Source: Chitinophaga oryzae
GTDB taxonomy: Bacteria; Bacteroidota; Bacteroidia; Chitinophagales; Chitinophagaceae
DNA length: 64,000 nt
Reading direction: 5' to 3'
Assembly: GCF_012516375.2 (NCBI RefSeq)
Contig: NZ_CP051204.2
Location: 5,456,001 to 5,520,000 of the forward strand
Shown here: one piece after another, positions 22,836-49,373 of the stretch
Position numbering within the stretch: position 1 is the stretch's first letter
How the letters are laid out: each line of letters begins with the position of its first letter
The notes under the pieces: generated by a model
Seen by the model: the letters and a program-made list of their open reading frames with translations, nothing else
Told to the model about the DNA's origin: nothing
The model's database searches: none
Program-made: the position numbers and the translations under genes

Positions 22836-22867
22836 TTGGGCTACTCCAAAAACTTTTATTATGTTTG
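22836..22867 (+). promoter_or_regulatory. Probable promoter of the sugar operon
   Basis: A TATGTTTG box (22860-22867) matches the Bacteroidota -7 consensus TAnnTTTG, with TTG (22836-22838) 21 bases upstream as the -33 element. The -7 box lies inside the operator, so a bound repressor would cover it. Confidence 0.5.
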
Positions 22868-22872
22868 AACAT
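22861..22872. promoter_or_regulatory. GntR-type operator (ATGT-N4-ACAT)
   Basis: ATGTTTGAACAT, a dyad with arms ATGT and ACAT and a four-base centre, 17 bases before the kinase-isomerase start. The same form occurs in front of both GntR genes of this window. The adjoining ATGAACAT (22873-22880) adds a further half-site. Confidence 0.6.
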
Positions 22873-22889
22873 ATGAACATTAAAAAATA

Positions 22890-25514
22890 ATGGGAACCGG
22901 GAAAAAAATAGCGATAGACATTGGCGGCAGTCATGTATCTGCCTGTATAGTAGACACGAACAACACCGGATCAGCACCGGGCAACGTTATGACAAAGCCT
23001 TTACAGGCAGACAGCAGCGCGGCGGAGATCATTTCCGTTATTGCCGGCTGCATCACGGCATTGAAAGACACGACGATCGACGGCATCGGCATAGCCATGC
23101 CCGGCCCGTTTGACTATCAGAACGGCATCAGCGCCATCACCAAAGTAGGGGGTAAATTCGGCCGCCTGTTCGGCCTTCATGTCCGGCAGGCCTTACAGGA
23201 TGCATCCTGCACAGAAGACCTGCCCATGCACTTTTGTAATGACGCTCATGCTTTTGCGATGGGTGCACGGCAGGTACTGGGGCTCGACGGCCCTAAAACC
23301 GTGTTGCTGACGCTGGGCACCGGCTTCGGCTCTGCCTTCCTGGAAAACGGGGCGCTGGCAGCGGCACCTGAAGGACTGCCTTCCGCGGCGTTTTTTGACT
23401 GCCCCTTCCAGGACGGCATAGCAGACGATTACTTCTCTACCCGCTGGCTGCTGGAAGCCTTCCGGCAGCAGACCGGTGTGGTGGCCTCCTCCGTTAAAGC
23501 CATGGCTGAAGAACATGAAACCATTGCCCGGCCGGTATTTCAGGCCTTCGGCCGAAACCTGGGCGCTTTCCTGCGGCCCTGGCTTTCTCAATACGGCTGT
23601 ACGGCACTCGTGATCGGCGGCAATATCGCCCGCGCTTATACGTTGTTTTCCGCTCCGCTGGAAGAACAGCTGCATGGCCTCCCGGTAAAAATCACCTGGT
23701 GCCAGGAAACAGAACACTGTATCCTCACCGGCGCGGCCATGACGCCACATCAGGCGGACAACACCGCTGTACGCCGCACCACCCAGCCACTACTGCCCGT
23801 GACAGCTGATAATACCGGCGAAGCCGCATATACCGTCTTTCCCTCCTTTCATACCGGTCATCCGGTGGAAGAAGGTTACGCCTCCCTGGCAGCCGCTGTT
23901 AAAGATGACAGCTATCTCATCATAGACGGTTACGACGGCGTGCTGTGGGAACCGTTCAGGGCTGCCCTTCACCAGGCGCTGCGGGCATATAACCGCCCCG
24001 TATACTGGTACCATACCGGCGTATGCCTGCAAACGCCTGCTGCTATTACGGCCATGCTGGAAGCCTATTCCGGCACACCGGACGCCGTATTCGGCAAACG
24101 GTACGAGGGCAGCCTGGCCGACTTCTTCGATCCGGAGAAATTATTTTCTATCCACCCGGACGATGCGCCCGGCCTGCATATCATCTATGGCACCGGCGCG
24201 GCGCTCACCGCCATCAAAGGCAGAACACTGTATATAGACATCCCTAAAAACGAGATCCAGTACCGCCTGCGGGCCGGCAGCATCACCAACATCGGCACGC
24301 CTACGTATGCGTATAAACGCTGCTACTTTGCCGACTGGCCCGTTTTAAATAAACACAAACAATCTTTACTGCCGCATATCGATGTGATCATCGATGGTCA
24401 GCGTCCCGATACCATCACCTGGATGCCCGGCGCTCAGCTGCGTGCAGCCCTCGACGTGATGCTCCGTCAGCCTTTCCGCGCCCGGCCGTGGTTTGAAGCC
24501 GGCGTATGGGGCGGCGACTGGATGAAAAAACATCTCCCCGGCCTGAACACCGACGAAGTGAACTATGCCTGGTCCTTCGAACTTATCACACCGGAAAACG
24601 GTATTGTGCTGGAAGGCAACGGCCGCCTGCTGGAGGTATCCTTCGATATGCTGGCCTTCCACAACAACCGCCAGCTGCTTGGCAAAGCCGCACAGCGCTT
24701 CGGTACCAGCTTCCCTATCCGTTTCGATTTCCTCGACACGTTCGACGGCGGCAATCTGTCCATCCAGTGCCATCCGCGGCCAGCCTATACCCTGCAACAT
24801 TTCGGAGAAGATTTTACGCAGGACGAAACCTATTATATCCTCGACTGTAAGCCGGACGCACAGGTGTACCTCGGCTTCCGGGAAGACATACAGCCGGCCG
24901 CTTTCAGAGAAGCGCTGGAAGCAGCTATCAGCGATAACGTACCGCTACCCGTGGAAAAATATGTGCAGCAGTTCACCGCCAAGAAACATGAACTGTACCT
25001 GATACCCAACGGTACCATACACGCTTCCGGTAAAAACAATATGGTGCTGGAGATCAGCAGCACGCCCTACATCTTTACATTTAAAATGTACGACTGGCTG
25101 CGCACAGACCTCAATGGCCGTCCGCGGCCCATCCACCTGGACAGGGCTTTTGACAACCTGTACTTCGACCGGAAAGGTAAAACCGTACCTGACACGCTGA
25201 TCTCAAAGCCGCAACTGCAGGAAGAATGGCCCTCCGGAAAAAAATGGCAGCTGCCCACGCATGCCGAACACTTCTACACCGTGGACCGTTATGAGTTCTC
25301 CGGTGAAGTGAACATACCCACCAACGGGCAGTGTCATATCTGTATGCTGGTAGAAGGCCGTCAGCTGGACGTTACCGCCGGTGGCGGCACACAACGTTTT
25401 CAGTATGCCGAAACGTTCGTCATCCCCGCAGGGGCTGGTCATTACGCCTGCCGTTATACCGGCGAAGGCAAAGCCATGCTGGTGGTAGCCTATGTAAAAG
25501 ACAACTATTGCTGA
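22890..25514 (+). CDS. Fused ROK sugar kinase and class I mannose-6-phosphate isomerase
   Basis: An 874-residue fusion. Residues 1-290 are a ROK kinase: phosphate motif DIGGSH (10-15), catalytic Asp118 in CNDAHAFA, and LTLGTGFGSAF; the zinc-binding CxCG motif of most ROK kinases is missing. Residues 310-530 are an unassigned linker domain like that seen in long Bacteroidota isomerases. Residues 530-874 are a class I phosphomannose isomerase with the zinc set Gln626 and His628 (SIQCHP), Glu646 (DETYYI) and His711 (TIHASG). Inferred role: phosphorylate mannose (or fructose) and convert mannose-6-phosphate to fructose-6-phosphate in one polypeptide. First gene of an operon with a porter and an alpha-mannosidase. 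Confidence 0.88.
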   Translation: MGTGKKIAIDIGGSHVSACIVDTNNTGSAPGNVMTKPLQADSSAAEIISVIAGCITALKDTTIDGIGIAMPGPFDYQNGISAITKVGGKFGRLFGLHVRQALQDASCTEDLPMHFCNDAHAFAMGARQVLGLDGPKTVLLTLGTGFGSAFLENGALAAAPEGLPSAAFFDCPFQDGIADDYFSTRWLLEAFRQQTGVVASSVKAMAEEHETIARPVFQAFGRNLGAFLRPWLSQYGCTALVIGGNIARAYTLFSAPLEEQLHGLPVKITWCQETEHCILTGAAMTPHQADNTAVRRTTQPLLPVTADNTGEAAYTVFPSFHTGHPVEEGYASLAAAVKDDSYLIIDGYDGVLWEPFRAALHQALRAYNRPVYWYHTGVCLQTPAAITAMLEAYSGTPDAVFGKRYEGSLADFFDPEKLFSIHPDDAPGLHIIYGTGAALTAIKGRTLYIDIPKNEIQYRLRAGSITNIGTPTYAYKRCYFADWPVLNKHKQSLLPHIDVIIDGQRPDTITWMPGAQLRAALDVMLRQPFRARPWFEAGVWGGDWMKKHLPGLNTDEVNYAWSFELITPENGIVLEGNGRLLEVSFDMLAFHNNRQLLGKAAQRFGTSFPIRFDFLDTFDGGNLSIQCHPRPAYTLQHFGEDFTQDETYYILDCKPDAQVYLGFREDIQPAAFREALEAAISDNVPLPVEKYVQQFTAKKHELYLIPNGTIHASGKNNMVLEISSTPYIFTFKMYDWLRTDLNGRPRPIHLDRAFDNLYFDRKGKTVPDTLISKPQLQEEWPSGKKWQLPTHAEHFYTVDRYEFSGEVNIPTNGQCHICMLVEGRQLDVTAGGGTQRFQYAETFVIPAGAGHYACRYTGEGKAMLVVAYVKDNYC

Positions 25515-25531
25515 TTTAAATATTTCACGTC

Positions 25532-26929
25532 ATGGGAAACAGTAACACACGCCTGTTCATCACCACCGTCACCCTGATCGCTGCATTGGGAGGCCTGCTT
25601 TTTGGCTTCGATGTAGCCGTTGTCAGCGGTATCATTCTTCCCGTAAAAACACAGTTCCAGCTCACCGCATCGCAGGAGGGCTGGTTCGTTTCCTGTGCCC
25701 TGCTGGGATGTATCGCAGGCGTAGCTTTTTCCGGCACCCTGAGCGACCGTATCGGCCGTAAAAAAGTGCTGGCCCTGGCCGCCTTCCTCTTCCTGGTCAG
25801 CGCCGTCGGATTTGCCGTCTCCACCACCTGGTCGCTCCTGATATTTTTCAGGCTGCTGGCAGGCATGGGCGTAGGGGTGGCCTCCAATATATCCCCCCTT
25901 TACATCTCGGAGCTGGCGCCGGCTTCGCGGCGGGGACGGCTGGTCACTTTCTACCAGCTGGCCATCACCATCGGCATCCTTGTAGCTTACTGCTCCAACC
26001 TGGCCATTCAACGTTATGCGGCAGCTGCCGGCGATACTTCCGGCGGATGGCTGCACTGGCTGTTTGTAACAGAATACTGGCGTGGCATGTTCCTCGTGGG
26101 CGTCATCCCTGCCGTCGCTTTCTTCGCGCTGCTGGCCATCGTTCCGGAAAGCCCCCGGTGGCTGGCCCGCTTCGGCCGGCAAACGGAAGCGCTGCATATC
26201 CTGGAAAAAATCAATCCTGACAAAAAAGAAGCCGCTGCAGAACTGCAGGCGATCCTGGCTGTATCCGCGGACGCCTCCAAGGGCGGGCTGCGCGCGCTGC
26301 TGCAACCGCCGCTGCGGCATCTGCTCGTGATGGCCTGCGTATTGACAGCCTTCTCACAGTTCAGCGGCATCAATGCGGTGATCTACTACGGTCCTACCAT
26401 TCTGCGTTCTTCCGGCGTAGTGGCCAACGATACGCTGCTGTACCAGGTGATGCTGGGCGCCGCCAATATGCTCTTCACGTTTGTGGCCATCTGGAAAGTG
26501 GACAGCCTGGGACGCCGCCCGCTGTATCTTGCCGGCTCCATCTGCGCTGCCGCCGCACTAACGCTCACGGGCATATTTTTCCTGTTGCAGATCAACGGAT
26601 GGCCGTTACTGATACCGATCACTTTTTTCCTGCTGTTCTTCGCTTTTTCACTGGGACCATTGAAGTTTGTCATCGCCACGGAGATATTTCCGACACCGGT
26701 AAGAGGACTGGCGCTGTCTGTCTGCATCCTCGTAATGTGGGTGTCTGACTGGCTGTTGAACCTGCTCTTCCCCATCATGCGGGAAGGCATGGGCATCGCC
26801 ACCACCTTCTTCCTGTTTGCCGGCTGTTGCCTTTTCTCTTTTTTCTATGCGAAAAAATACCTGTTCGAAACCAAGGGTCAGTCGCTGGAAAACATCACCA
26901 TGAAAGAAAAAACGATCATCCACCATTAA
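25532..26929 (+). CDS. MFS sugar porter
   Basis: A 465-residue 12-helix transporter of the sugar porter family. Diagnostic motifs are LLFGFDVAVVSGI in helix 1, SDRIGRKK in loop 2-3, VPESPRWLA before the central loop, DSLGRRPLYL in loop 8-9, and the C-terminal FETKGQSLENI (the PETKG motif of the family). It probably imports the monosaccharide, presumably mannose, by proton symport. It starts 17 bases after the kinase-isomerase stop and ends 9 bases before the alpha-mannosidase, so the three are clearly co-transcribed. Confidence 0.93.
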   Translation: MGNSNTRLFITTVTLIAALGGLLFGFDVAVVSGIILPVKTQFQLTASQEGWFVSCALLGCIAGVAFSGTLSDRIGRKKVLALAAFLFLVSAVGFAVSTTWSLLIFFRLLAGMGVGVASNISPLYISELAPASRRGRLVTFYQLAITIGILVAYCSNLAIQRYAAAAGDTSGGWLHWLFVTEYWRGMFLVGVIPAVAFFALLAIVPESPRWLARFGRQTEALHILEKINPDKKEAAAELQAILAVSADASKGGLRALLQPPLRHLLVMACVLTAFSQFSGINAVIYYGPTILRSSGVVANDTLLYQVMLGAANMLFTFVAIWKVDSLGRRPLYLAGSICAAAALTLTGIFFLLQINGWPLLIPITFFLLFFAFSLGPLKFVIATEIFPTPVRGLALSVCILVMWVSDWLLNLLFPIMREGMGIATTFFLFAGCCLFSFFYAKKYLFETKGQSLENITMKEKTIIHH

Positions 26930-26938
26930 TCACCTGTT

Positions 26939-29900
26939 ATGATGAGAATATTCTGTTGTATCACTGCTTTAATAGCCTGCGCCCTGAACGGGACCGCCCA
27001 GAAAACGGTCCCCTATCTCGGTAAGGTAGACTGGATCAACGGTTACGACCATGAAACGGAAGGCGAGAACATCCGCTACTACTCCGCATTTCCAGACTAC
27101 GCTACTACCGCGCTGCTCACACGCGCAACCGACGGTCATAAAACGATCGCCTGGCAAACCGCTGCCGTGCCCGCACGCGTCAAAGGACCTTATGTTTATT
27201 TCAGCTGGGTAGCCGGCCACTCTTCCGCCACCAACAGCGGCGACCGTCACTTCGATTTATATGTGGATGATGTAAAACTGCTGACGTTCACCACTAAACG
27301 CGGTAACCAAACGCCGGACTGGACGTTCGCCGCGCCCGACAGCAGCCGCCTCGTCTTCCAGCAACTCCGGAAAGACGGCGCCAACGACGCGCACGGACTG
27401 ATGTTCCTGCGGCTGCCCCTCAGCCGCGTAACACCGGGCAAGCCGGTCCGCCTGAAAATCATAGGTCACGCACAGCAGAGCAACGACTGGTTCATGACCT
27501 TTAAATTTTCCTTCCAGGAAAAAGTGGACATCCTCCCCCAACCCTTTATCCTGAAAAACGGGCAGCAGCCTGTAACACTGACGGCGCTGCATTTTGGCAC
27601 GCTCCGTACTTTCAAGGTAACGGTAGACGGCAAAAAAGTATATTCCTTCCCGGTAGAAGACGGCGTCAACACTTTCGACATCCCCGTCAATGCCGTGAAA
27701 CAGCCCGACAGTATTCATGTAGTCGTTAGCGATGCCGGCAAAGTAGTGACGGAGCGGGTTATCACCCTTACACCGGTCACCTACCGGGAACTGCATTTCA
27801 TCCATCACTCCCATACCGACATCGGTTACTCACACCTGCAGCCGGAAGTACTAAAAATACACCTCCGCAATATCAACGACGCGCTGGACATGATCGCCGC
27901 TACCCGCGACTATCCCGAAGAAGCGAAGTTCAAATGGAACATCGAATCCCTGTGGGCGGTGGAACACTTCCTGCAACAGGCCACACCGGAGAGAAAAGCT
28001 GCATTCATACAGGCCGTGAAAGACGGCAACATCTGCCTCTCTGCCCTGTACGCCAATATCCTCACGGGCCTTACCCTGCCGGAAGAAACGTTCCATTACA
28101 CCGACTTCGCCGCGCAGCTGCAGAAGACTTACGGTCTCCGCATCCCCAGCGCCATGATCTCCGACGTGCCGGGGTATACCTGGAGCACGGTGACAGCACT
28201 GGCCAAAGGCGGCGTTAAATACTTCTCCAGCGGGCCTAATTACCTGGGCGAAAGTCATCCTTACCTCGGTGACCGCGTAGGCCATTTTGTGCGCAGCTGG
28301 GGCGATAAGCCCGTATGGTGGGAATCTCCTTCCGGACAGGAGAAAATACTGTTCTGGACAGGCGGCAAAGGATACTCCTCCTGGCATGGCACCGCCCCCG
28401 GCGCTGTCTTTGAAAGAGGACCACAGAAAATAGCGGGTTACCTGAACGAGCTGGACGAAAAACACTACCCTTATGACATCGTTCAGTGGAGGTACAACGT
28501 GGTAGCCGATAACGGGCCGATAGACACCGCTGTCTCCCGTTTCGTTAAGCAGTGGAATGAAAAGTATGCATCTCCCAAAATTGTACTCAACACCACCGAT
28601 AAACTGTTTGAAACTTTTGAACAGAAATATGGAAAAGACCTGCCCGTCGTGAAAGGGGACATCACCCCTTACTGGGAAGACGGCGCCGGTTCTACCGCCA
28701 AAGAAGAAGGCCAAAACCGTGTCAACAGTCTCCGGTTGTCTCAACTCACCAATGCCTATGCTATGCTGGCGCCGGGACGGTTTAACGCGCAGCAGTTTTA
28801 CAATGCGTGGACCAACATCCTTATGTTCCATGAGCATACCTGGGGAGCGCATAACAGCATCTCGCAGCCGGACGTATCGTTTGTGACAGCGCAGTGGCGC
28901 ATCAAAAAGCAGTTCATGCTGGATGCCGATAGTATCATCCAGACCCTCAGCGGACAGCTGTTCCAGCCGTTGACAGACGAAAAATCGCGCAGCATTGCCG
29001 TCGTTAATACGCTATCCTGGCCCCGCAGCGGACCGGTAAAAATAAGCATCGCCGGCAAGTCCGTGAAGGACGCCCGCGGCCGGAAATACCCGCTGCAGCG
29101 CCTTTCCGACGGCAGCTTCGTATTCCTCGCCAGGGAGGTGCCGGCCTTTGGCACCGCGGTATATACCGTCACGGACGAAGTCGTTAAGGCCACCGCCAGC
29201 TTTAAACAAAGCGGCAACGCACTCTCCAATGGCAACATCAGCGTTACCTGGGACAATAACGGCAGCATCACCCAACTCTCCGCGCAAGACGGTCACAACT
29301 ACGCCGGTACTTTCCGCGGACAGGGACTGAACAGCTACTGGTACGTGCCAGGCCAGAACCCCGCCGATGCAGAGACCAATCAGCCCGTACAGGCGCAGGT
29401 ATTGGAAAGCGGTCCGGTAGTGACCACCATCGCGCTTCGGGCGCAGGCGCCTGGCGCCAATGCCCTGGAGAAAAGGCTTACGCTTTATGCCAACAGCAAC
29501 ATGGTATTGATTGAGAACACGGTTGACAAAAAGCCTGTCAGGCAAAAAGAAGCGCTGCATTTCGGGTTCCCGTTTGAAGTGCCCTCCGGACAGGTGACGC
29601 TGGACGCGGGCTACGGCACGCTGCAATACCTGAAAGATCAGCTGCCGGGGTCCAATATGGATTTTCTCTTCGGCCGCCGGTGGATGGATATCTCCAACAC
29701 CGCCAACGGCGTACAGTGGATGCTGCTGGAAACGCCGATGGTAGAGCCGGACAGCATGATCAACGAGCGCCTTCAGATTGCGCAAAGCCATAAAGCGTGG
29801 AGAACGAAAGGGCAACCCACCAGCCGTTGGTTCTCCTATGTCATGAATAACTACTGGCACACTAACTATAAGGCAGACCAGGACGGCAGCAGCAGCTATC

Positions 29901-30253
29901 ACTATGCCTTACAGCCGCATGGCGCTGCCGACGGCGCAGCGCTGGAAACAGCAGCAGCGGACTTTACACAACCGCTCCTGAGTTTTCCTATGAAGAAAGG
30001 CGCTGCTTTACCGGCGGGGCTTTTCCGGCCGACCAACGCCGCCGTAGTGGCTACCGCCGTGGTACCACAGGAAAATGGCCAGTACCTGGTGCGGCTCTTT
30101 AATCCCGGTAAAACAAGCCAAAGCACCGGGTTTGAATGGGGCACGCTGAAGCCTGCACGCATTACCGTGGTAAGAAACGGAGAAACGAAAGACGCAAAGG
30201 CAACCTTTACCCTGCCCTCTATGGGCGTAGAGGAGTACCTGCTTATTCCATAA
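26939..30253 (+). CDS. Secreted GH38-type alpha-mannosidase
   Basis: A 1104-residue exported enzyme. The signal peptide is MMRIFCCITALIACALNGTA. Residues 25-280 form one or two beta domains, likely carbohydrate-binding. The GH38 catalytic domain starts at HHSHTDIGYSH (zinc ligands His292 and Asp294), and the probable nucleophile is Asp409 in SDVPGYTW. A further metal ligand lies in FHEHTWGAHNS, where classic GH38 enzymes have HHDAxSGT. The C-terminal third holds beta-sandwich domains (LEKRLTLYANSNMVLIENTV). Family level is well supported; linkage preference is not. It supplies mannose to the porter and kinase-isomerase of the same operon. Confidence 0.85.
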   Translation: MMRIFCCITALIACALNGTAQKTVPYLGKVDWINGYDHETEGENIRYYSAFPDYATTALLTRATDGHKTIAWQTAAVPARVKGPYVYFSWVAGHSSATNSGDRHFDLYVDDVKLLTFTTKRGNQTPDWTFAAPDSSRLVFQQLRKDGANDAHGLMFLRLPLSRVTPGKPVRLKIIGHAQQSNDWFMTFKFSFQEKVDILPQPFILKNGQQPVTLTALHFGTLRTFKVTVDGKKVYSFPVEDGVNTFDIPVNAVKQPDSIHVVVSDAGKVVTERVITLTPVTYRELHFIHHSHTDIGYSHLQPEVLKIHLRNINDALDMIAATRDYPEEAKFKWNIESLWAVEHFLQQATPERKAAFIQAVKDGNICLSALYANILTGLTLPEETFHYTDFAAQLQKTYGLRIPSAMISDVPGYTWSTVTALAKGGVKYFSSGPNYLGESHPYLGDRVGHFVRSWGDKPVWWESPSGQEKILFWTGGKGYSSWHGTAPGAVFERGPQKIAGYLNELDEKHYPYDIVQWRYNVVADNGPIDTAVSRFVKQWNEKYASPKIVLNTTDKLFETFEQKYGKDLPVVKGDITPYWEDGAGSTAKEEGQNRVNSLRLSQLTNAYAMLAPGRFNAQQFYNAWTNILMFHEHTWGAHNSISQPDVSFVTAQWRIKKQFMLDADSIIQTLSGQLFQPLTDEKSRSIAVVNTLSWPRSGPVKISIAGKSVKDARGRKYPLQRLSDGSFVFLAREVPAFGTAVYTVTDEVVKATASFKQSGNALSNGNISVTWDNNGSITQLSAQDGHNYAGTFRGQGLNSYWYVPGQNPADAETNQPVQAQVLESGPVVTTIALRAQAPGANALEKRLTLYANSNMVLIENTVDKKPVRQKEALHFGFPFEVPSGQVTLDAGYGTLQYLKDQLPGSNMDFLFGRRWMDISNTANGVQWMLLETPMVEPDSMINERLQIAQSHKAWRTKGQPTSRWFSYVMNNYWHTNYKADQDGSSSYHYALQPHGAADGAALETAAADFTQPLLSFPMKKGAALPAGLFRPTNAAVVATAVVPQENGQYLVRLFNPGKTSQSTGFEWGTLKPARITVVRNGETKDAKATFTLPSMGVEEYLLIP

Positions 30254-30270
30254 GCAACAGGTTATAAATG

Positions 30271-30302
30271 AAAATGCCGGATGAAAAATCATCCGGCATT
30301 TT
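30271..30302. terminator. Bidirectional rho-independent terminator
   Basis: 14-base perfect stem AAAATGCCGGATGA with an AAAA loop and a T-run of seven bases on the plus strand; the A-run at the other end serves the minus strand. It sits in the 54-base gap between the convergent alpha-mannosidase and GntR genes. Confidence 0.92.
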
Positions 30303-30307
30303 TTTAT

Positions 30308-31051
30308 CTATAAGTGAGGTCGTTTTAGTTCGATACTATAGGTAAAACAATCGCTCCTGTACCAGCAGATGTTAAACTCCAGCGGCTTCCGGCTGGCGTC
30401 CAGCACTATTCTGCGCCTTTCCAGCACCGGCGATCCCTTTTTGACTTTCAGCAGGCCGGCGATCTTTTCATCGGCGCCAATAGCTTTGATTTCTTCCTGG
30501 GAATATACCGGCACCACGTGAAAGTCCGCGTCCAGCATCTCATACAGCGGCCGGTCGAAATTCTCTTTGCCGGTAAGCCCTATCCTGGGATGGAAAAAAG
30601 ATTCGAAATACACCATCGGGCTTTTCTCAGTGCTCCGGATACGCTCCAGGCATACCACCGGTTGCTCCGGCTCTGTCTGCAGCATCTTCGCCACTTCCTC
30701 CCCTGCTTTCGCCACCGATACCTTGTTCTTCAGGGTTTTGAACGGGATGCCCTTGTCCTCCATTTCATGGGTGAAGCTGTACCAGTTGTCCAGGTTGGTG
30801 GTGATCTTTTTCTTTTTCACCACCGTGCCATACCGCTTCTTTCGCTCCAGCAGGCCGTCTTTCACCAGGTTGGCGATGGCCATCCTTAACGTGTTGCGGG
30901 AAATGCTCCAGCGTTTGGCCAGGTCTGTTTCTTTTGGAAAAATGTCTCCCTCCCGGAAAAAATCCTCCCGGATCAGCTTCCGTAATAGCTCCTCCGCCTG
31001 CTGATGCAGGGGGATTTTACTATCGTGGTCCAATAAAGGTATCTTCGTCAT
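30308..31051 (-). CDS. GntR-family (HutC/UTRA) transcriptional regulator
   Basis: A 247-residue repressor-type protein. The N-terminal winged helix (about 10-75) reads PLHQQAEELLRKLIRE, then FPKETDLAKRWSISRNTLRMAIANLVKDGLLERKK. The UTRA effector domain follows, with VYFESFFHPRIGLTG and PLYEMLDADF. It is clearly paralogous to the GntR gene at 49378 (both have the FHPRIGLTG and PLYEMLE-like motifs). It converges on the mannosidase operon. A dyad operator begins two bases before its start codon, which suggests autorepression. The effector is presumably a phosphosugar such as mannose-6-phosphate. Confidence 0.93.
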   Translation of the reverse strand: MTKIPLLDHDSKIPLHQQAEELLRKLIREDFFREGDIFPKETDLAKRWSISRNTLRMAIANLVKDGLLERKKRYGTVVKKKKITTNLDNWYSFTHEMEDKGIPFKTLKNKVSVAKAGEEVAKMLQTEPEQPVVCLERIRSTEKSPMVYFESFFHPRIGLTGKENFDRPLYEMLDADFHVVPVYSQEEIKAIGADEKIAGLLKVKKGSPVLERRRIVLDASRKPLEFNICWYRSDCFTYSIELKRPHL

Positions 31052-31053
31052 AT

Positions 31054-31065
31054 ATGTACGAACAT
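31054..31065. promoter_or_regulatory. GntR-type operator in front of the GntR gene
   Basis: ATGTACGAACAT, extended on both sides to ATATGT and ACATAT (31052-31067). It lies two bases upstream of the start codon, so a bound dimer would block transcription or translation start. Same form as the sites at 22861 and 49362. Confidence 0.65.
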
Positions 31066-31138
31066 ATCGATTTTTTGCGACGGGGAAAAATTTTTATGCT
31101 GAAAAGCTGGCGGGACGTAACATTTGGAGGGAGCCCGT

Positions 31139-32320: not shown

Positions 32321-32464
32321 GGGTTTCTACTTATAAATATAAGCAAGTATATCCGATTTACCGGCGGTAAAATCTCCATGGAGGCGGAAGACTGCCAACC
32401 GGCATTTCTTACCCAATGGTAATTGTCAGCCGGCCGGACAAGAGGAATTTTGTGTCAAAAGATC

Positions 32465-32620: not shown

Positions 32621-32646
32621 GCTGACAGTAGGCTTTTCTTATCGTG

Positions 32647-33417: not shown

Positions 33418-33509
33418 AGGTACTTTTATTATCGCTGCGGGCAAACATACAATAATAAATACTTATTTACCCAACAACGAATTTGATATAGCGTACATTT
33501 ACGGCAAGT

Positions 33510-38417: not shown

Positions 38418-38428
38418 AAAACAGCACT

Positions 38429-40186: not shown

Positions 40187-40242
40187 AAGTGCACTGAGTC
40201 GTTAGGGCACTAAAGGGTATTTACACATCATTTTTGCGTACA

Positions 40243-41580: not shown

Positions 41581-41598
41581 CCTCTGTTATTTTTGAAT

Positions 41599-42801
41599 TT
41601 ATTTTTTACTGTGCGTATAAAAAGTGCATTCTCCCATCGTCATAAAAGGAGCGCTGCCCCAATTGGTCAACAGCCTGAACCGGTAATAGCGGAAAGCCGT
41701 AGTTCCCGGAGGCACTGAAAATGGTTCTCCGTTTTTGGCGAAAGTGATATCATCATCGGTCAGCTGTCCAACCGGCAGGCCGGAAGGCTTCACCGATTCA
41801 TACGTCCCTATCATGGTCCAGCTGTTCCAGCTACCGTCCGGCGCAGGGCTGTTACTGCCATATAGTTCAAACGTTTTTACATTCTCCTGGTTGTACAACC
41901 TGTCGGCTGCCTGCCATACTTTAAAACGGCTGAGCGGAGCGGCAGTTCCCACATCTATCGTAAACCAGCAGGGGATGACCGATTGTGTGGCAAAACCGGG
42001 CACGTCGTAGTTGTTGTCCCAAAGGTAATCTATCAGCCACCCATAGCCACCGTCCTTTACGTCAGTGGGCAGTGGCAGCACCTTAAAATCAGCTTTGGAC
42101 AGTTCCCGTTCAAATGCGGGAAGCGTGACTGCCGACAGCTCCGGGTAAAAAAATTCGAAGGCGGTCGTATCCGGTTTATACATGGAACGGTAGGTCAACG
42201 GTGAACGCTCTGCATAATCCGGAAGCACCGTACGGTTGTCACCGGCATGGGCAATTATTTTCTGCGTTGTTCCGCCGGCGCTGACATAAGTCACTTCAAT
42301 CCCCTGTTCTCCCGCGGCGGGCTCTCCCCAGTTCAGGAAGATCTGCTGGCCGTCAGGCGACTGTGTGACCGACTTCAGCGTGCGGTTGACCAGCGTACCC
42401 GCATAACTTTTTCCATACGCCGTTCCGAAGACATGAACGATCACCGACCTGTTGTTGTCCTTGTCGTAGGAGTAAACGGTAAAATTATAATTGCCTTCAG
42501 GCAGGCCGGATATGAGCACCGGCAATGTGTCCTTGCCGCTGTGTTGTTTTGCCGGCACCTCCACGGAGTCCTTATTGCTGTTCCAGAAGATCCTGAATTT
42601 CGTTACCAGCGGATCGTTACCAGGTACCAGCAGCAACTGTATGCGCCCATAACCCGGTTGCGCCAGCACGGTGTCCACGCGGCCGGGATAGGTGATCTCC
42701 CCTCCTTCCATATATTTCTTAAAGGCGTCTCCTTTGGTACAGGATGTTAACCATACCGAAATGCCCAGCAGCCATAAGAAGATGAAACAGGTATATTTCA
42801 T
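41599..42801 (-). CDS. DUF4998 lipoprotein with C-terminal discoidin-like domain
   Basis: A 400-residue surface lipoprotein (signal LLGISVWLTSCT, lipid at Cys21). The N-terminal part (YPGRVDTVLAQPGYGRIQLLLVPGNDPLVTKFRIFWNSNKDS, then GLPEGNYNFTVYSYDKDNN) is the DUF4998 pattern, with two fibronectin-like modules. The C-terminal part (WFTIDVGTAAPLSRFKVW, YGSNSPAPDGSW, FRYYRFRLLTNWG) is an F5/8-type carbohydrate-binding fold. It presumably helps SusD bind glycan. It is 18 bases upstream of the glycosidase gene. Confidence 0.8.
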   Translation of the reverse strand: MKYTCFIFLWLLGISVWLTSCTKGDAFKKYMEGGEITYPGRVDTVLAQPGYGRIQLLLVPGNDPLVTKFRIFWNSNKDSVEVPAKQHSGKDTLPVLISGLPEGNYNFTVYSYDKDNNRSVIVHVFGTAYGKSYAGTLVNRTLKSVTQSPDGQQIFLNWGEPAAGEQGIEVTYVSAGGTTQKIIAHAGDNRTVLPDYAERSPLTYRSMYKPDTTAFEFFYPELSAVTLPAFERELSKADFKVLPLPTDVKDGGYGWLIDYLWDNNYDVPGFATQSVIPCWFTIDVGTAAPLSRFKVWQAADRLYNQENVKTFELYGSNSPAPDGSWNSWTMIGTYESVKPSGLPVGQLTDDDITFAKNGEPFSVPPGTTAFRYYRFRLLTNWGSAPFMTMGECTFYTHSKK

Positions 42802-42826
42802 GTATTGTTTTTTTTAGGTGGATGTA

Positions 42827-44002
42827 TTACTTGGTGTCGCCCCACATTGCGATCTCGTAAAAGTTCACATAGGTCCCGTTCGACCAGTTCTTCAGTGTCT
42901 TAAACCGGATATAACGCACTTTGGGCGTATTTAAAGGGAAGGTCACCGTTTGCCCCGCCAGCGCCGCATCGGTATCTGCCTGCGAAAGCTGTCCTTCCGG
43001 CAGGCCGGAAGGTTTGATCTGCGTCACCGTTGCCAGCAAAGTCCAGCTGGCGTCGAAGCTGCCATCGGGATTGGGATTGTCAGAACCCCATATTTCCACT
43101 ACGCGGGGATTGTGCAGCGAGTAATAGAATCCCGGTCTCATATGCCATACCAGGCGGCTCAGTTTAGCACGCTGGCCCATGTCATAGGTAAACCATTGGG
43201 GCATTCTCGCCGCATCGGAGGAGTGATAAAAACCATCGGTGGTGCTGCCGTCGAAAAGGCCGGCAATAGAACCGCCATATCCTATTGGCGCATCGCCGGG
43301 CAGTACCAGGCCTTTCATCTTGAGGCGGTCCAGCCGTTGTTCAAACAGCGGCGTCAGCACCACATGCAGGGTGTCGGACAGGTTGCCCCATCTGTCGCGC
43401 ACATACACGCCAAATTTTGTAGAAACATCGGGCATATTCCTGGTTGAAAAATCGCCTTCCCTGAGGTTCGTATACTGTGTAGCCACCGGGGAGAACCTGC
43501 CCAGTGAATCGTCCGAAAGCACAACGATCGCCAGGTCATCTTCTTCCGGGTTGGTGTATTTTACGTTGATGCCCCCGAAATCGGCGCTGGTGGCCAGCCC
43601 TTTTCTGACAATCCATACAGGTGGTATCAGCGGACGGACGGTGACGGTCACCGGCGCGGAAACATTTTCGCTTTTATCTACCGCATACACCGTGACTTTA
43701 TATTCGCTGGTATCGCCAAAACCGGCTACGGTCAGGTCCCTGTTGTAGCGGCTTACTTTTGTTTCACGGACCGTGCCGTTGCGGGCTGTGTAAAGGGCTT
43801 TTACATATAACAGGTCTGCATCTGCAGGAACGGCGTAACTTATTTTTGCTGCGCCGTGCAGGCTTTGTACCACTACGTTGCTCACAGGTCCCGGGGCTGT
43901 CTTGTCTTTCAGCACAGGCCCGTTCCCATCCTGCTTACAGGCGCCGGCCATGAAGAGTATGATAAAGAGGTGCAGGTAATAAATTCTTTTTTTCATCTCC
44001 AT
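42827..44002 (-). CDS. DUF4959/DUF5126/DUF5000-type surface lipoprotein
   Basis: A 391-residue lipoprotein (FIILFMAGACK, lipid at the Cys). Domain order by pattern: DUF4959-like (PGPVSNVVVQSLHGAAKISYAVPADADLLYVKALY), a second fibronectin-like module (DFGGINVKYTNPEEDDLAIVV), then a discoidin-like domain (WFTYDMGQRAKLSRLVWHM, EIWGSDNPNPDG). The start ATG at 44002 was chosen because the long upstream frame is not protein-like. It closely parallels the protein at 54588. Together with the DUF4998 protein it likely forms the glycan-binding surface layer of locus 1. Confidence 0.82.
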   Translation of the reverse strand: MEMKKRIYYLHLFIILFMAGACKQDGNGPVLKDKTAPGPVSNVVVQSLHGAAKISYAVPADADLLYVKALYTARNGTVRETKVSRYNRDLTVAGFGDTSEYKVTVYAVDKSENVSAPVTVTVRPLIPPVWIVRKGLATSADFGGINVKYTNPEEDDLAIVVLSDDSLGRFSPVATQYTNLREGDFSTRNMPDVSTKFGVYVRDRWGNLSDTLHVVLTPLFEQRLDRLKMKGLVLPGDAPIGYGGSIAGLFDGSTTDGFYHSSDAARMPQWFTYDMGQRAKLSRLVWHMRPGFYYSLHNPRVVEIWGSDNPNPDGSFDASWTLLATVTQIKPSGLPEGQLSQADTDAALAGQTVTFPLNTPKVRYIRFKTLKNWSNGTYVNFYEIAMWGDTK

Positions 44003-44033
44003 CTGTTTACATCGATATATTGATAAATGATCG

Positions 44034-45950
44034 TTACCAACCGGTATTTTGCACGAGGTTGGGATTGATTTGCAGGTTGCTCTCGCGGATCGGCCAGAAG
44101 TAGTCCCTGGGCGCCACGAAGCGGGGACTGTACAAAAACACCCTGCGGTTGTAGTCTTCATAGGTTGATTGGAGGATATCCCAACCGAAGACAGGCTGGT
44201 TCAATACCTGCGGCGCCGTTTTCCATCGGCGGAGGTCCCAGAAGCGGCTGCCTTCAAAAGCCATTTCAATCGTTCTTTCCTGCCGGATGATGTCCCGCAA
44301 TCCTTCCTGCGTGGAATATTTCGTTGGCTTTGCAGAATACGTGCTCCACGAATATTCAATAGTAGCCAGTCCTGCCCTGGCCCGCAGCTGATTGAGATAA
44401 AACAGCGCGTCGGCCGGCTTGCCTGTTTCGTTGGACGCCTCCGCATACAGCAGGTAAAGGTCGCCCAGGCGTATTATCGGCCAGGGATAAGCCTCTACTT
44501 CCAGCGAGGTGTTGTTGTACACGAGGTTCCAGTTGACAATTTTTTTGATGTAGTAGCCTGTGACAGAATACAGGCGGCTTTGTTTTTTCCCCGAATGTTG
44601 TTCCAGTTTACTCTGGATATTGTAATTCCCGTTTTTCATAAACCAGGTAGACCCGTCAAAGGCCATATCGGCATAGAACCGGGGCTCTCTTTCAAAATGC
44701 AGCCCGATGGTGCGGTATCCTTCCTGGATACCCGTGTCTTTTGCCGTAGCTGTGCGCAGCTGGTAGCGGGCGGCGTAATTCCAGGTCCTGTCTTCTTCCA
44801 CGGGAACGCCGTTACGCGTATAAAAAAGTTCTGCCATCTTCAGCGGAGGCGCCAGTTTTCCTTTCAGGTTCAGGTTAAACACGTTCGGGTCCAGCTGCGG
44901 GCAGGCGTAGGTCTGCAGCCAGTAGGTGGGCGTACCTGCGGATGTTTGTCCCCATATCAGTTCGCTGTTCCATTTTTCGCAAACGGCGTTGCGGATATTC
45001 ATTTCAATCTTCGTGGCCGGGTCCACCGTACCTACGGTGGGATTGAAGTAATACAGTTTACTGCCGGCCGCCTGCGCCACATCGATGGCCTGTTTACAGG
45101 CGATGCGCGCTTTCTCCCATTTAGTGGCGTCATACTGTGGATTAAAGAGCGGCTGACCGTTTTTATTTTTCATGCCGGCGAAATCACTGTTGCCATTAAA
45201 CAGAGGGCTGGCGGCTGTTACCAGCACCCGCGCCTTTATGGCCAGTGCCGCGGCCCTGGTGATACGGCCCAGCTCAGTCGTTGTGTTGGTGATTTTTGCA
45301 GGAAGGGCGCTGTTTTCACTGCCGGCCACCGCATCGATCAGCCCGGCGATGTAACTCACTACCGTATCCACCGGCTGCCGGTGTACTTTTACTTCTTCCG
45401 GAGAGGCGGTGATGGGCAGGTTTTTATCTGCAATGGGGATGGGGCCGTACATTCTCAACAGGTACCAGTGGAAGTAGGCTTTTAAAAAGGTGGCTTCCGC
45501 GGTCCATCTGTCTCTTTCATAGGGCTGCAGGTCCCGCACATTACCGATATTCTCCAGGAAGATGTTACAGGCCCTGATACCCTGCCAGAGCGACTCTCCG
45601 TCATAACCATCCCAGTAGTTCATGTAGGGTTGCGCCACGTTTTGGTTTCCCCGCGCGATGTTGTACGGGTCCAGGAAGAAAAAATCTTCCGTCATGGGCC
45701 AGTAGGTCCATGCTTCATCTCCGCCGCTGAAGGCAGGATTTTTATCCGGGTGGTCATCCTGTGGCAGGTAAGCGTAGCAGGTAAATAAATACTTCTCCGC
45801 TTCCAGCCGGTTGGAGAAGGCATGGTCCAGCGTGGGTACGTTGTCAGGAACGATATCCAGGTATTTATTGCAGGCAAACAGCGTGGAGCAGGCAAGGCAT
45901 AACAGCCAGCGTGAGAGATATGATAAATTGTTGGTTGATAAATGTTTCAT
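44034..45950 (-). CDS. susD: RagB/SusD family nutrient-binding lipoprotein
   Basis: A 638-residue outer-membrane lipoprotein. The signal ends in CSTLFACNKYLD (lipid at Cys27), and the start of the mature protein (NKYLDIVPDNVPTLDHAFSNRLEAEKYLFTCYAYLP) is classic SusD. TPR-type helices follow, with RAAALAIKARVLVTAASPLFNG, and the C-terminal RDIIRQERTIEMAFEGSRFWDLRRW motif is diagnostic. It caps the SusC barrel encoded 20 bases upstream. Confidence 0.96.
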   Translation of the reverse strand: MKHLSTNNLSYLSRWLLCLACSTLFACNKYLDIVPDNVPTLDHAFSNRLEAEKYLFTCYAYLPQDDHPDKNPAFSGGDEAWTYWPMTEDFFFLDPYNIARGNQNVAQPYMNYWDGYDGESLWQGIRACNIFLENIGNVRDLQPYERDRWTAEATFLKAYFHWYLLRMYGPIPIADKNLPITASPEEVKVHRQPVDTVVSYIAGLIDAVAGSENSALPAKITNTTTELGRITRAAALAIKARVLVTAASPLFNGNSDFAGMKNKNGQPLFNPQYDATKWEKARIACKQAIDVAQAAGSKLYYFNPTVGTVDPATKIEMNIRNAVCEKWNSELIWGQTSAGTPTYWLQTYACPQLDPNVFNLNLKGKLAPPLKMAELFYTRNGVPVEEDRTWNYAARYQLRTATAKDTGIQEGYRTIGLHFEREPRFYADMAFDGSTWFMKNGNYNIQSKLEQHSGKKQSRLYSVTGYYIKKIVNWNLVYNNTSLEVEAYPWPIIRLGDLYLLYAEASNETGKPADALFYLNQLRARAGLATIEYSWSTYSAKPTKYSTQEGLRDIIRQERTIEMAFEGSRFWDLRRWKTAPQVLNQPVFGWDILQSTYEDYNRRVFLYSPRFVAPRDYFWPIRESNLQINPNLVQNTGW

Positions 45951-45970
45951 GACATATGATTTAGCCGGCG

Positions 45971-48900
45971 TTATAACTGAACGTTGACCCCTATATTAAA
46001 AACACGTTGCACGGGGTATCCCAGGCCGTTTCCTCCCTGCTCGGGGTCCCACAGTTTAAAGGCGCTGACGAGGAACAGGTTGGTGCCGTTGGCATAAATG
46101 CGCAGGCCTGCGATGTGATATTTTTTCAGGCCTTTGTCGCCGATGTTATACCCGATCTCTGCGCTTTTCATTCTCAGGAAAGCGCCGTTGCGTATCCACC
46201 AGCTGGATGGCTGGTTGTTGTTCTGATTTTGGGTAAGCCCGAGCCTGGGCCAGAAAGCATAGAGGTTGCGGTTATCTTCGGACCAGTGATCGTTGGCGAT
46301 CACGTCCAGCAGGCCGTGCTGGTTGGGGCCATCGGCCACGAACGGGGAAATGGCTTCGGGGCTGATGGCGATAGAAGATCTTGCCGATCCCTGGAAGAAA
46401 GTGCTGATGTCGAAATTTTTATAGCCGAAGGAGAAGCCGAAGCCGTAGATCACTTCCGGCGTAACGGGATGCGCAAGCCCGTTGACCATGTCCAGCGTGG
46501 TGATCTGTCCGTCGCCGTTCATGTCACGGTATTTGATATCTCCTCCCCTTACTTCCCCAAAATTCTGCCTGGGAGCGTTTTTCACGTCCTCATCATCTAC
46601 AAACAGGCGCTCTGCTATCAGGCCATACACCTGCCCGAGGGAGTGCCCTACGCGGGAGAGGTACTGCATGTTGGCGGGATACTCCGGTTCTTCGTTGACC
46701 AGCAGTTTGCTGGCGGCATAGGTGAATGTTCCCCGCATCTGCAGCCAGGCCTTGTTGAATGTTTTGTTGTAGTCCATCGATACGTCTACGCCGCGGCCCT
46801 GCGCTACGCCCACGTTAGCGGATACCGGCGCTGTGAGCCCGAGGGTGGTGGGAATATAGGCGCGCGCCATCAGGATGTTGCTGCGGCGCTCCTGGTAGGC
46901 ATCGATGGTAATATTCAGTGCATTCCACAGACCGAGGTCCATACCGACGTTGATCTTTTTCGATTTCTCCCAGGTGATGCCTTCGTTCGGATAGCGGGCA
47001 ACGGAGACGCCGGGGCGGCTGTATGCGAAGTTTTCCCCGAAGGCCGCGGCAAAAAGATCGTCGCTGAGCTTCACGTTGGACAGGTAGAAGAAACGGTCAT
47101 TGGCATTGCCTATCTGATCGTTACCTACGAGGCCCCAGGTAGCGCGCACTTTCAGCTTCGACACCACATTGTTCCATTGCCGGAAGAACTTTTCATTGCC
47201 CGCATTCCAGGCGAGGCCGATGGAAGGGAAAAATCCGAACCGGTTTTTCTTTGCAAACCTTTCAGAGCCGTTGTAGCCGAAGTTGCCTTCAAACAGGTAG
47301 CGGTTATCGTAGGCATAGGTAAACCTGCCGGATATGCCCTGGTTGCGGAAAGGCAGGGATGCCTGCAGATCTCCGGCGTTGCCGTTGAGATAGTTGCGGC
47401 GGATGCCGATGAGCAGCCCGCCGACATTATGCAGTTCATTGAAGGTCCTGTTGTAGTTGATGGCCGCTTCCGCATAGGTGGTGGTGTTCACCGTTTTGTC
47501 GCCGGGCTTGTAGTTCAGGTATTCCGTTCCGGTACTTTCATTGAGCAGCGACAGCGTATAGCCGCCGGATTTGTCCGCGACAGGATTGGCTGCATAAAAG
47601 AACGGGGTATACTGCCTGCTGACGCTGAAATAGGAATAGCGCTTGGTATATGCCATCGCCCTGGCCGAGAGGCCGGGGAGGATGAAGTCCAGGTCCTGCT
47701 TTATTTCCACCTGAACGTTTAAGACCGAGGTGTTGTATTGCTGGAAACCCGACACCATAGACGCGTACGGGTTCGTATATATTTCACCGTTAGATCCGCG
47801 CGAAGCGTTGCCAAACAGCGGGTGCCGGGCGGTTGGCAGCGCGGTGGCCGGGAAAATGGCGGGGAATAAAACGGGATTGGCGTTCAGCGTACTTTTAAAG
47901 ACTTCCGCGCCGCCGCCGATCGGCCCGGTATAATCGTCGAAATTGCCGGTCGTTCTGATGATGGCTTCCGTAGTATTGGTCAGCTTCAGGTTGACGTTGG
48001 AGCGCACTTCGTAACTTCTCAGCCGGATGTTGTTATTCACCGCGGTGCCGCGCTGTGTTTTCAGTATGCCTTTGTCCTGGTTGACGGTAGCGCCTACATA
48101 ATACTGCGCTTTGTTACCGCCACCGGTAAGGTTGATGTTAAAGCGCTGATTGTTGGTGTACTTTTTTATCAGGGCGTCTATCCAGTTGTTATCAGGATAG
48201 AGATACGGATTGCCGCCGGCGATGGTGCCATCGATTTTATGCTGGCTGTAAGGCAGTGGCGCCAGCGGGTTGCGGGTGAGGGCTGCTTCGTTTGCCAGCT
48301 GCATGTAGGTGATGTTGTCGGCCAGGCGGAAGTTCCTTGTGTTGGAGGAGATGGAATTCTCCAGCCTGATATTCATTTTGGTATTGCCGGCTTTGCCTGT
48401 TTTGGTGGTGACGAGGATGACGCCGTTGGCCCCGCGTGCGCCATACAAGGAGGCGGCGGCAGCGTCTTTCAATACCGAAAACCCGGCGATATCGTCCGGC
48501 TGTAGGCGCGCCAGCTCGTTGGAGGCAGACTCCATCCCGTCTATCAGGATCAGCGGGTCCAGCTTTCCGGAGCCGAAGGAAGTGATGCCCCTGATAAAGA
48601 AAGAGGCGTTATCCGCACCGGGCTCTCCGCTCCGCTGATAGGAAACAAGGCCCGATATCCGTCCTGCCAGCATGGTGGTCAGGTTGCTGGTAGGACCTTT
48701 GATTTCTTTCGGATTCACGCTGGTGATAGCGCTGACCATGCTTCCTTTCTTTTGTTGTCCGTAGGCCACCACCACTACGTCGTTCAGGTCGTTTTTATTT
48801 TCCAGCATCGTCACCTGGATGGTATGCCGGCCCGCCAGCGGTATGAGCTGCCGCTGGTAACCAACATAGGAAAACAGGAGCGTATCGGTGGCGCCTCCCG

Positions 48901-49117
48901 CGGTGATGACATAGTCCCCGCCGGCCGTTGTGGTGGTGCCGGTAGCGGTGTTCTTTATCATGACCGTTACGCCGGGCATCGCCTGGCCTTTGCTGTCCAG
49001 TACCTTCCCCGTGACTTTAAAGACGGTTTGGCCTGGCGAGATTTTGGTTGTCAGCAGTAACAGGAGGCAATACAGGTACCTCCGCTGCCTTAAAAAGGTC
49101 AGGGCACATTTTTTCAT
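45971..49117 (-). CDS. susC: SusC/RagA family TonB-dependent outer-membrane receptor
   Basis: A 1048-residue barrel protein. The signal peptide runs from the ATG at 49117 (MKKCALTFLRQRRYLYCLLLLLTT). A carboxypeptidase-regulatory-like beta domain follows (FKVTGKVLDSKGQAMPGVTV), then the TonB box and plug (VVVAYGQQKKGSMVSAIT, SFFIRGITSFG, YGARGANGVILVTTK) and the 22-strand barrel with the typical FNIGVNVQL end. No STN domain precedes the plug, so this receptor does not signal to an ECF/FecR pair; control is presumably by the divergent GntR protein. A frame extension to 49168 is not needed. Confidence 0.96.
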   Translation of the reverse strand: MKKCALTFLRQRRYLYCLLLLLTTKISPGQTVFKVTGKVLDSKGQAMPGVTVMIKNTATGTTTTAGGDYVITAGGATDTLLFSYVGYQRQLIPLAGRHTIQVTMLENKNDLNDVVVVAYGQQKKGSMVSAITSVNPKEIKGPTSNLTTMLAGRISGLVSYQRSGEPGADNASFFIRGITSFGSGKLDPLILIDGMESASNELARLQPDDIAGFSVLKDAAAASLYGARGANGVILVTTKTGKAGNTKMNIRLENSISSNTRNFRLADNITYMQLANEAALTRNPLAPLPYSQHKIDGTIAGGNPYLYPDNNWIDALIKKYTNNQRFNINLTGGGNKAQYYVGATVNQDKGILKTQRGTAVNNNIRLRSYEVRSNVNLKLTNTTEAIIRTTGNFDDYTGPIGGGAEVFKSTLNANPVLFPAIFPATALPTARHPLFGNASRGSNGEIYTNPYASMVSGFQQYNTSVLNVQVEIKQDLDFILPGLSARAMAYTKRYSYFSVSRQYTPFFYAANPVADKSGGYTLSLLNESTGTEYLNYKPGDKTVNTTTYAEAAINYNRTFNELHNVGGLLIGIRRNYLNGNAGDLQASLPFRNQGISGRFTYAYDNRYLFEGNFGYNGSERFAKKNRFGFFPSIGLAWNAGNEKFFRQWNNVVSKLKVRATWGLVGNDQIGNANDRFFYLSNVKLSDDLFAAAFGENFAYSRPGVSVARYPNEGITWEKSKKINVGMDLGLWNALNITIDAYQERRSNILMARAYIPTTLGLTAPVSANVGVAQGRGVDVSMDYNKTFNKAWLQMRGTFTYAASKLLVNEEPEYPANMQYLSRVGHSLGQVYGLIAERLFVDDEDVKNAPRQNFGEVRGGDIKYRDMNGDGQITTLDMVNGLAHPVTPEVIYGFGFSFGYKNFDISTFFQGSARSSIAISPEAISPFVADGPNQHGLLDVIANDHWSEDNRNLYAFWPRLGLTQNQNNNQPSSWWIRNGAFLRMKSAEIGYNIGDKGLKKYHIAGLRIYANGTNLFLVSAFKLWDPEQGGNGLGYPVQRVFNIGVNVQL

Positions 49118-49156
49118 AACAATGACTAACAGTATAAAGTAAAGCGAGCAGTTATA

Positions 49157-49168
49157 TTGTACATACAT
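49157..49168. promoter_or_regulatory. GntR-type operator upstream of susC
   Basis: TTGTACATACAT, the same dyad as the other sites with one arm base changed. It lies 40 bases upstream of the susC start, where it would interfere with transcription towards susC. Confidence 0.4.
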
Positions 49169-49310
49169 AATTACATATTAAGTTTGAAAAAAGCAAACAT
49201 CCCCGGAAAAAAAATTTGCCCACTCGATGCCTTTAAGGGGAAAAACCGGAGTGAAAAATGGGAGCATTATTTCATCCGGATCTTGCTGCATAAAGGTTTT
49301 CAAGGGTACT

Positions 49311-49320
49311 CCCCCGGGGG
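49311..49320. promoter_or_regulatory. GC palindrome in the susC-gntR intergenic region
   Basis: Ten-base perfect palindrome CCCCCGGGGG in an otherwise AT-rich region between the divergent susC and gntR genes. It is far richer in GC than its surroundings. Its function is unknown. Confidence 0.4.
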
Positions 49321-49361
49321 TGGCCATTGTTGATTAATTATGCTAACTTGCATACTTAATT

Positions 49362-49373
49362 ATGTTCCTACAT
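49362..49373. promoter_or_regulatory. GntR-type operator in front of the second GntR gene
   Basis: ATGTTCCTACAT, with arms ATGT and ACAT and a four-base centre, ending four bases before the gntR start codon. It repeats the arrangement seen at 31054, so autorepression is likely. Confidence 0.6.

Follow-up and report, generated by a model that had tools for sequence, protein, structure and literature searches.

One probable mannoside regulon in Chitinophaga, with two HutC-type repressors predicted to recognise the same half-site

Do two distant loci on a 64,000-nucleotide stretch of a Chitinophaga genome (bases 5,456,001–5,520,000 of a single contig of 8.36 Mb; hereafter the window) belong to one sugar-responsive regulon? 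Each carries a GntR-type regulator gene, here called gntR1 and gntR2, together with the dyad ATGT-N4-ACAT, and an earlier reading made from the sequence alone (the sequence-only reading) had joined them on this basis. The three exact dyads that it reported, at 22861–22872, 31054–31065 and 49362–49373, are all in place, 17, 2 and 4 bp upstream of called starts respectively; its one-mismatch copy before susC (49157–49168) is also present, reading TTGTACATACAT, and is a portion of a 20 bp site, TTGTACATACATAATTACAT. We consider it probable that the window holds one mannoside regulon, in which two HutC-type repressors would recognise the same half-site.

The first site belongs to an operon of mannose-related genes. 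The gene at 22890–25514 encodes a fusion of a ROK kinase (about residues 7–261) with a type I mannose-6-phosphate isomerase (residues 523–852, matching 1qwr at 1.1e-16) and is followed on the same plus strand by genes for an MFS sugar porter (25532–26929) and a GH38 family, alpha-mannosidase-like protein (26939–30253). At this operon and at susC the site is larger than the dyad first described, having three half-sites in 8 bp steps (WTGT-N4-ACAT-N4-ACAW). The kinase operator, ATGTTTGAACATATGAACAT (22861–22880, plus strand; ATGT-TTGA-ACAT-ATGA-ACAT), is identical in 9/9 loci of the same gene order and overlaps the -7 box of a predicted promoter (22836–22867, plus strand; TTG, a 21 bp spacer and the -7 box TATGTTTG), which was read against the -7/-33 consensus. 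All 18 kinase/isomerase promoters that were read have the form TTG-N19-21-TATGTTTG, which we take to be the Bacteroidota -7/-33 promoter pattern, with the dyad beginning one base inside the -7 box; because of this overlap the arrangement points to repression by occlusion.

The susC operator (49157–49176, minus strand; TTGTACATACATAATTACAT on the plus strand) is built as TTGT-ACAT-ACAT-AATT-ACAT. Judged by eye, with two orthologues called at 1048 and 1046 amino acids, 49117 is a more plausible susC start than 49168, and the operator therefore lies 39 bp upstream of the start. WTGT-N4-ACAW is found at this place in 11/11 loci and the three-half-site form in 9/11.

Exact copies of ATGT-N4-ACAT number six in the window, as opposed to the three noted earlier and 0.93 expected from shuffles, and 0/100 window shuffles reached six. 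The additional copies lie at 51476 (within dxs), 56797 (within susD) and 50156 (intergenic); those at 51476 and 56797, both coding, were dropped as parts of the regulon. The dyads exist and go well beyond what chance would give; the probability of a copy within 60 bp of both UTRA genes is about 2e-7. In the whole genome the exact 12-mer occurs 61 times and the same pattern read backwards 117 times. Among the 55 copies outside the window, 34 overlap a called open reading frame (ORF), one of these (115031) only across its start, and nine, 115031 included, lie no more than 60 bp before a called start; ORF calling was mechanical, and some of the coding calls, for ORFs of 115–163 amino acids, may be wrong. 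A motif common throughout the genome with no bias to promoters had been named beforehand as an outcome that would tell against the regulon, and with a 60-base limit the bare 12-mer proved neither rare nor promoter-bound, which goes half of the way to that outcome. Given the 34/55 copies in ORFs and the 9/55 near starts, the 12-mer is unspecific by itself and was rejected as a genome-wide predictor; its meaning comes from its location. Pfam scans of 20 neighbouring proteins at 16 of the outside sites gave no link to mannose (2OG oxygenase, SusC-like, GNAT, DUF4290/SDR, ComEC-like, response regulator, ECF sigma, GH43 and others), the exceptions being a GH38/DUF5054 gene at 4511675 and, weakly, a PSCyt gene at 4261957.

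Location was compared across Bacteroidota in 80 named loci, the best 80 of at least 326 confirmed, and 75 stretches from genomes of the same genus, together giving 158 gntR homologues (153 unique). The exact dyad lies between -150 and +12 at 110 of these 153. Clustering to below 85% identity left 61 non-redundant homologues, upstream of which every 4-mer dyad with a spacer of 0–12 was tallied (3,328 dyads): ATGT-N4-ACAT ranked first, at 46/61 (0–2 in 15 shuffles), and the runner-up, TATG-N6 (31), is a shifted form of it. Counted by group from -200 to +12, with the window included, the exact dyad accompanies 31/31 GntR1-type genes and 9/10 close GntR2 orthologues, the tenth having ATATTGCTACAT at the same place; the proposal that both repressors are autoregulated is well supported by these sites, in that each type has a putative operator of its own beside it. 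Among the 112 other homologues 75 have the exact dyad and 91 have WTGT-N4-ACAW. Clustering and grouping were by ungapped identity, and a GntR1-clade gene (L149 at 7275) that carries the dyad thereby fell among the others.

Within the 80 named loci the dyad precedes 60/79 gntR genes as against 50/766 other ORFs, the latter comprising kinase/isomerase (14/73), MFS (9/47), SusC (5/20), GH94-like (1/31), gntR (1) and unlabelled genes (20/551). Eight of the unlabelled 20 are Sphingobacterium genes of 776–781 amino acids, and the three that were scanned all encode GH92 alpha-mannosidases. By eye, between Chitinophaga and Flavobacterium the dyad stays at the start codon and the flanks differ. At seven loci (L014, L024, L031, L033, L038, L045 and L048) the called gntR ATG is the ATG of the first half-site, the operator lying within the coding start.

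The regulator genes themselves, gntR1 (30308–31051, minus strand) and gntR2 (49378–50112, plus strand), were assigned by Pfam, UTRA search and phylogeny as encoding GntR plus UTRA (HutC-type) regulators. Both products exceed the Pfam cut-offs for PF00392 (N-terminal GntR winged helix) and PF07702 (C-terminal UTRA), and no further UTRA match was found in the genome at E <= 0.001. Dyad search and locus comparison place their operators at 31054–31065 (minus strand; ATGTTCGTACAT on the gene's strand) and 49362–49373 (plus strand; ATGTTCCTACAT). GntR1 is 99% identical to its counterpart in Chitinophaga eiseniae DSM 22224. The description of the two as clear paralogues agrees with their shared domains and 43% identity over 238 amino acids, but they fall in two separate clades and are not a local duplication: in a midpoint-rooted tree of 63 rows (the 61 non-redundant homologues and the two window proteins) a single split of 15 versus 48 rows, with 100/100 support, parts GntR1 from GntR2, and a recent tandem or local duplication was dropped. 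Both sides of the tree hold several families, so we take the split to be an old one.

The best match of GntR2 among solved sequences is NagR (phmmer, 4.8e-25, GntR2 as query). According to PMC4333415, NagR/YvoA of Bacillus subtilis (PDB 4u0v, 4u0w) has the same domain pair, Arg48, phosphate-binding arginines and four-base spacing of the inner GT and AC, and its Arg48 reads G-4 and Arg38 reads G-5. Residues were mapped onto NagR by hand from alignments and tallied over the 63 rows. The Arg48 equivalent is Arg in 63/63 and the Arg38 equivalent is a different residue throughout (V 41, T 14, I 5, L 3), a combination that would fit ATGT-N4-ACAT with its G at -4 and T at -5. Of the phosphate ligands, Arg133 is kept in 60/63 and Arg135 in 57/63 (the rest Lys); Tyr167 is Tyr in 63/63 and Thr90 is Thr in 37 and Ser in 26. 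Compared with NagR, other residues take the place of Arg38, Pro mostly that of Ser165 and Phe that of Glu145, the half-site is ATGT rather than GTGG and the sugar is presumably a different one; Gly69 is also replaced in both window proteins, with Gly kept in 41/63 homologues. The residue pattern seems to fit a phosphosugar effector other than N-acetylglucosamine-6-phosphate, and we infer that this effector is mannose-6-phosphate.

As far as the site itself goes, ATGT-N4-ACAT has the palindromic form of HutC-subfamily operators, with GT and AC four bases apart. It lacks the TA at the centre of the HutC consensus NyGTMTAKACNy, its spacers here being TTGA, TCGT, TCCT and ACAT; PMC4494728 presents NyGTMTAKACNy as a consensus from which some named regulators deviate, and HutC membership therefore stands on domains and spacing. 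That paper also describes, for HutC-group operators, a GT-N4-AC palindrome with a weaker half-site 7–12 nt from the centre, which the third half-site here, centred 12 nt away, resembles. It differs from those extra boxes in being a full ACAT at the structural operons and in being absent at the window gntR1 and gntR2.

The circuit as a whole recalls ManR (BT2103) of Bacteroides thetaiotaomicron, a GntR family regulator predicted in 2013 to control mannose uptake and conversion to fructose-6-phosphate, with a SusC/SusD operon encoding oligo-alpha-mannosidases in its predicted regulon (PMC3878776). Judged by the site alone, genes for mannose uptake, phosphorylation and isomerisation likewise stand under the operator here, in the kinase-isomerase, MFS and GH38 operon. 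The Chitinophaga circuit is a ManR-like regulon, likened to it by description rather than by the sequence or sites of BT2103: a GntR family regulator and one regulon spanning capture to central metabolism are common to both, whereas here there are two regulators instead of one, the kinase and isomerase are fused and the SusC/D locus has no clear mannosidase. Searches of open-licence PMC papers, judged by their listings, gave no report of such a circuit in Chitinophaga.

The three-half-site form WTGT-N4-ACAT-N4-ACAW occurs seven times in the 8.36 Mb genome, and three of these matches (kinase, susC and 50156) are in the window (under random placement, P about 1.5e-5). Another match precedes a GH38/DUF5054 gene at 4,511,667; the remaining three sit in called ORFs, one being a GH92 gene. 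Ten relatives gave 47 more, and the context of all 54 matches across the 11 genomes was read: 32 are at mannose-linked genes, gntR or the 50156-type place (kinase/isomerase 14, susC of this locus type 7, GH38 or GH38/DUF5054 5, beside gntR 3, 50156-type 3), two of the three beside gntR lying between gntR and a GH94-like gene. The other 22 comprise three at a PSCyt/DUF1549/DUF1553 gene, three other intergenic matches (one across a start) and 16 inside called ORFs.

At the GH38/DUF5054 gene with its three-half-site operator (L240:6993-9795; genome 4,511,667 onward) the N-terminal frame looks disturbed in comparison with L248. The PSCyt1/PSCyt2/PSD1 (DUF1549/DUF1553) gene has its operator 135–195 bp upstream in upstream DNA that is otherwise largely unlike, as a dyad in this genome (4,261,957; L249:6001) and in the three-half-site form in L260, L263 and L266; it is a candidate, and unexpected, member of the regulon, and in this genome a DUF1501 gene follows it. 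Two GntR1-only relatives have paired three-half-site sequences about 150 bp apart (G019:C2:1172356 and 1172509; G077:C3:764659 and 764813).

What links the two loci of the window is best seen in relatives. In 7/10 close GntR2 loci gntR2 is flanked by a divergent SusC/D locus on one side and by an isomerase gene on the other, with an MFS gene in five of the seven and ATGTTTGTACAT-N4-ACAT as the isomerase operator. This arrangement joins capture directly to catabolism, and since the isomerase gene adjoins gntR2 there, the GntR2 locus has a mannose connection of its own. GntR1 and a close GntR2 were found together in this genome, G013 and G050; in all three the second isomerase operon is absent and the one copy of the isomerase domain found is in the GntR1-linked operon. 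Four other genomes (G006, G011, G035 and G042) encode just one UTRA protein, of GntR2 type, and the fused kinase-isomerase gene elsewhere: 716 kb (G006) or 2.6 Mb (G035) from the regulator gene, or on another contig (G011, G042). Where looked at, in G006 and G011, MFS and GH38 genes follow it. In these GntR2-only genomes the kinase operator is ATGTTTGTACATATGWACAA, as ATGTTTGTACATATGTACAA or ATGTTTGTACATATGAACAA, 108–128 bp upstream of the matched start, with 17 and 18 of 20 bases like the window kinase operator, and in six GntR1-only genomes it is exactly the window 20-mer. Altogether the fused gene was found in 13/16 genomes searched (six GntR1-only, four GntR2-only, three with both), with a three-half-site operator in 13/13.

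This near constancy of the kinase operator despite the change of clade is the best evidence that the GntR1 and GntR2 clades read the same site, though it does not prove cross-action within one cell. Since the window genome has one isomerase copy and the operator hardly changes in GntR2-only genomes, both repressors probably act on the kinase operon, and the cross-action that the sequence-only reading had allowed for thus appears likely, by inference from the 4/4 GntR2-only genomes. Its broader claim of a single regulon from capture to catabolism holds in part, in the conserved shared sites (kinase 9/9 loci, susC 11/11) and the mannose-related genes.

From these comparisons of sites, their conservation, promoter overlap, gene content and conserved residues a model can be put forward in which binding, repression, the inducer, the strength of the third half-site and cross-action are predictions. 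Each repressor would sit as a dimer on ATGT-N4-ACAT, and the third half-site 8 bp further on may strengthen the site at the structural operons. GntR1 would hold down its own gene and the kinase-MFS-GH38 operon, and GntR2 its own gene and the SusC/D locus. A repressor on the kinase operator would cover the -7 box and exclude RNA polymerase until a phosphorylated sugar formed as mannose enters, most likely mannose-6-phosphate made by the ROK kinase, binds UTRA and releases it. The model extends the Bacteroides prediction to a concrete, testable list of operators and targets for the use of mannosides in Chitinophaga and many further Bacteroidota, and the two repressors, long separated, provide a natural example of what looks like a shared operator code. 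Activity of C. pinensis is reported on D-mannose but is poor on alpha-mannan (PMC11497827), and for this reason oligomannosides may suit better than mannan as the substrate.

A number of observations weigh against a single shared regulon. The exact dyad is missing from -150 to +12 at 43/153 gntR homologues; in the outer group 37/112 are without it, and at 21 not even WTGT-N4-ACAW occurs within -200. The window gntR1 and gntR2 sites hold two half-sites only, and the window gntR1 promoter, like 14/30 other GntR1-type promoters, is off the strict -7/-33 pattern. Raw counts of the three-half-site form are hardly raised over a mirrored control (54 versus 45 in the 11 genomes; 27 versus 19 in five further genomes, where at least eight of the 27 coincide by position with kinase, isomerase or susC), so that only the position of such matches is informative. 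The NagR phosphate ligand Ser165 is Pro in 54/63 and the sugar contact Glu145 is Phe in 63/63, hence an effector pocket that differs from that of NagR. GntR1-only genomes, too, have as a rule a single isomerase copy, which is by itself no argument for sharing, and the differing operator spacers could encode separate specificities.

The last of these points would suit two insulated regulons, GntR1 governing its own gene and the kinase operon and GntR2 its own gene and SusC/D, with the dyad a half-site of the subfamily and the spacers keeping them apart. The regulators do fall in two clades, each operator does adjoin its own regulator, and GT-N4-AC is common to most HutC-subfamily sites (PMC4494728); however, spacers vary within the sites of one regulator as much as between the two, the base-reading Arg48 and the loss of Arg38 are common to both, and the kinase operator keeps its 17–18/20 likeness in 4/4 GntR2-only genomes, so we regard insulation as possible yet doubtful. 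That the GntR proteins are activators or dual regulators at some sites, rather than plain repressors, is unlikely: the susC site is 39 bp before the likely start with the susC promoter itself not resolved, and no matching promoter lies beside the 50156 site, but the dyad overlaps the -7 box in 18/18 kinase/isomerase promoters and NagR and DasR, the closest relatives with solved structures, are both described as repressors. It is highly improbable that the dyads arose by chance or belong to an unrelated regulator; 61 genomic copies, and the 34/55 outside the window that overlap a called ORF, would be in keeping with this, but not the phylum-wide conservation beside gntR with diverged flanks, nor the conserved target sites.

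The site at 50156–50175 (plus strand; ATGTCACTACATTATAACAA), absent from the earlier account, lies 43 bp downstream of the gntR2 stop as an orphan operator at the place of the operator of the relatives' second isomerase operon. It reads ATGTTACTACATTATAACAA in C. eiseniae (G013) and ATGTCACTACATTATAACAT in G050, each 19/20 like the window, with drifted flanks; the gntR2 coding DNA is 94% (G013) and 85% (G050) identical to that of the window. In all three genomes the site is without the -7 box TTTG. One rather unlikely reading is that it is a working operator without a promoter, kept after loss of the second isomerase operon in an auxiliary or titrating role, for instance through a bridge to the operators of gntR2 and susC, 0.8–1 kb away, with the two old repressor clades sharing one kinase operon. 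The site is either a relic or a kept auxiliary site, and three related genomes are few; such a lineage, with the operator and without the operon, lets one ask whether operators outlive promoters for a reason.

The SusC/D operon that carries the susC operator runs on the minus strand: the SusC-like TonB-dependent transporter gene (45971–49117, from the likely start) is followed by genes for a SusD-like protein (44034–45950, Pfam), a SusE-like protein with DUF4959, DUF5126 and DUF5000 (42827–44161; the start as called runs into susD and is perhaps set too early), a DUF4998 plus DUF5000 protein (41599–42801, Pfam) and a GH94/GH63/invertase-like (alpha/alpha)6-barrel protein (40243–41580, fold search). 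The last, the sole enzyme-like protein found there, is nearest to GH94 phosphorylases, neutral invertases and mannosylglycerate hydrolase, at 14–18% identity among the matches listed. Beyond gntR2, dxs lies between gntR2 and a NamZ gene (50190–52100), and in C. eiseniae L113 no dxs match was obtained at that place. In a second SusC/D locus (52185–63261) the DUF4998/DUF4959 pair recurs, together with a NamZ-like protein and, upstream, a FecR/ECF sigma pair. Near gntR1, the proteins encoded at 31139–32320 and 32647–33444 gave no Pfam match at E <= 0.001; homologues of the former sit upstream of gntR1 in L004 and L169.

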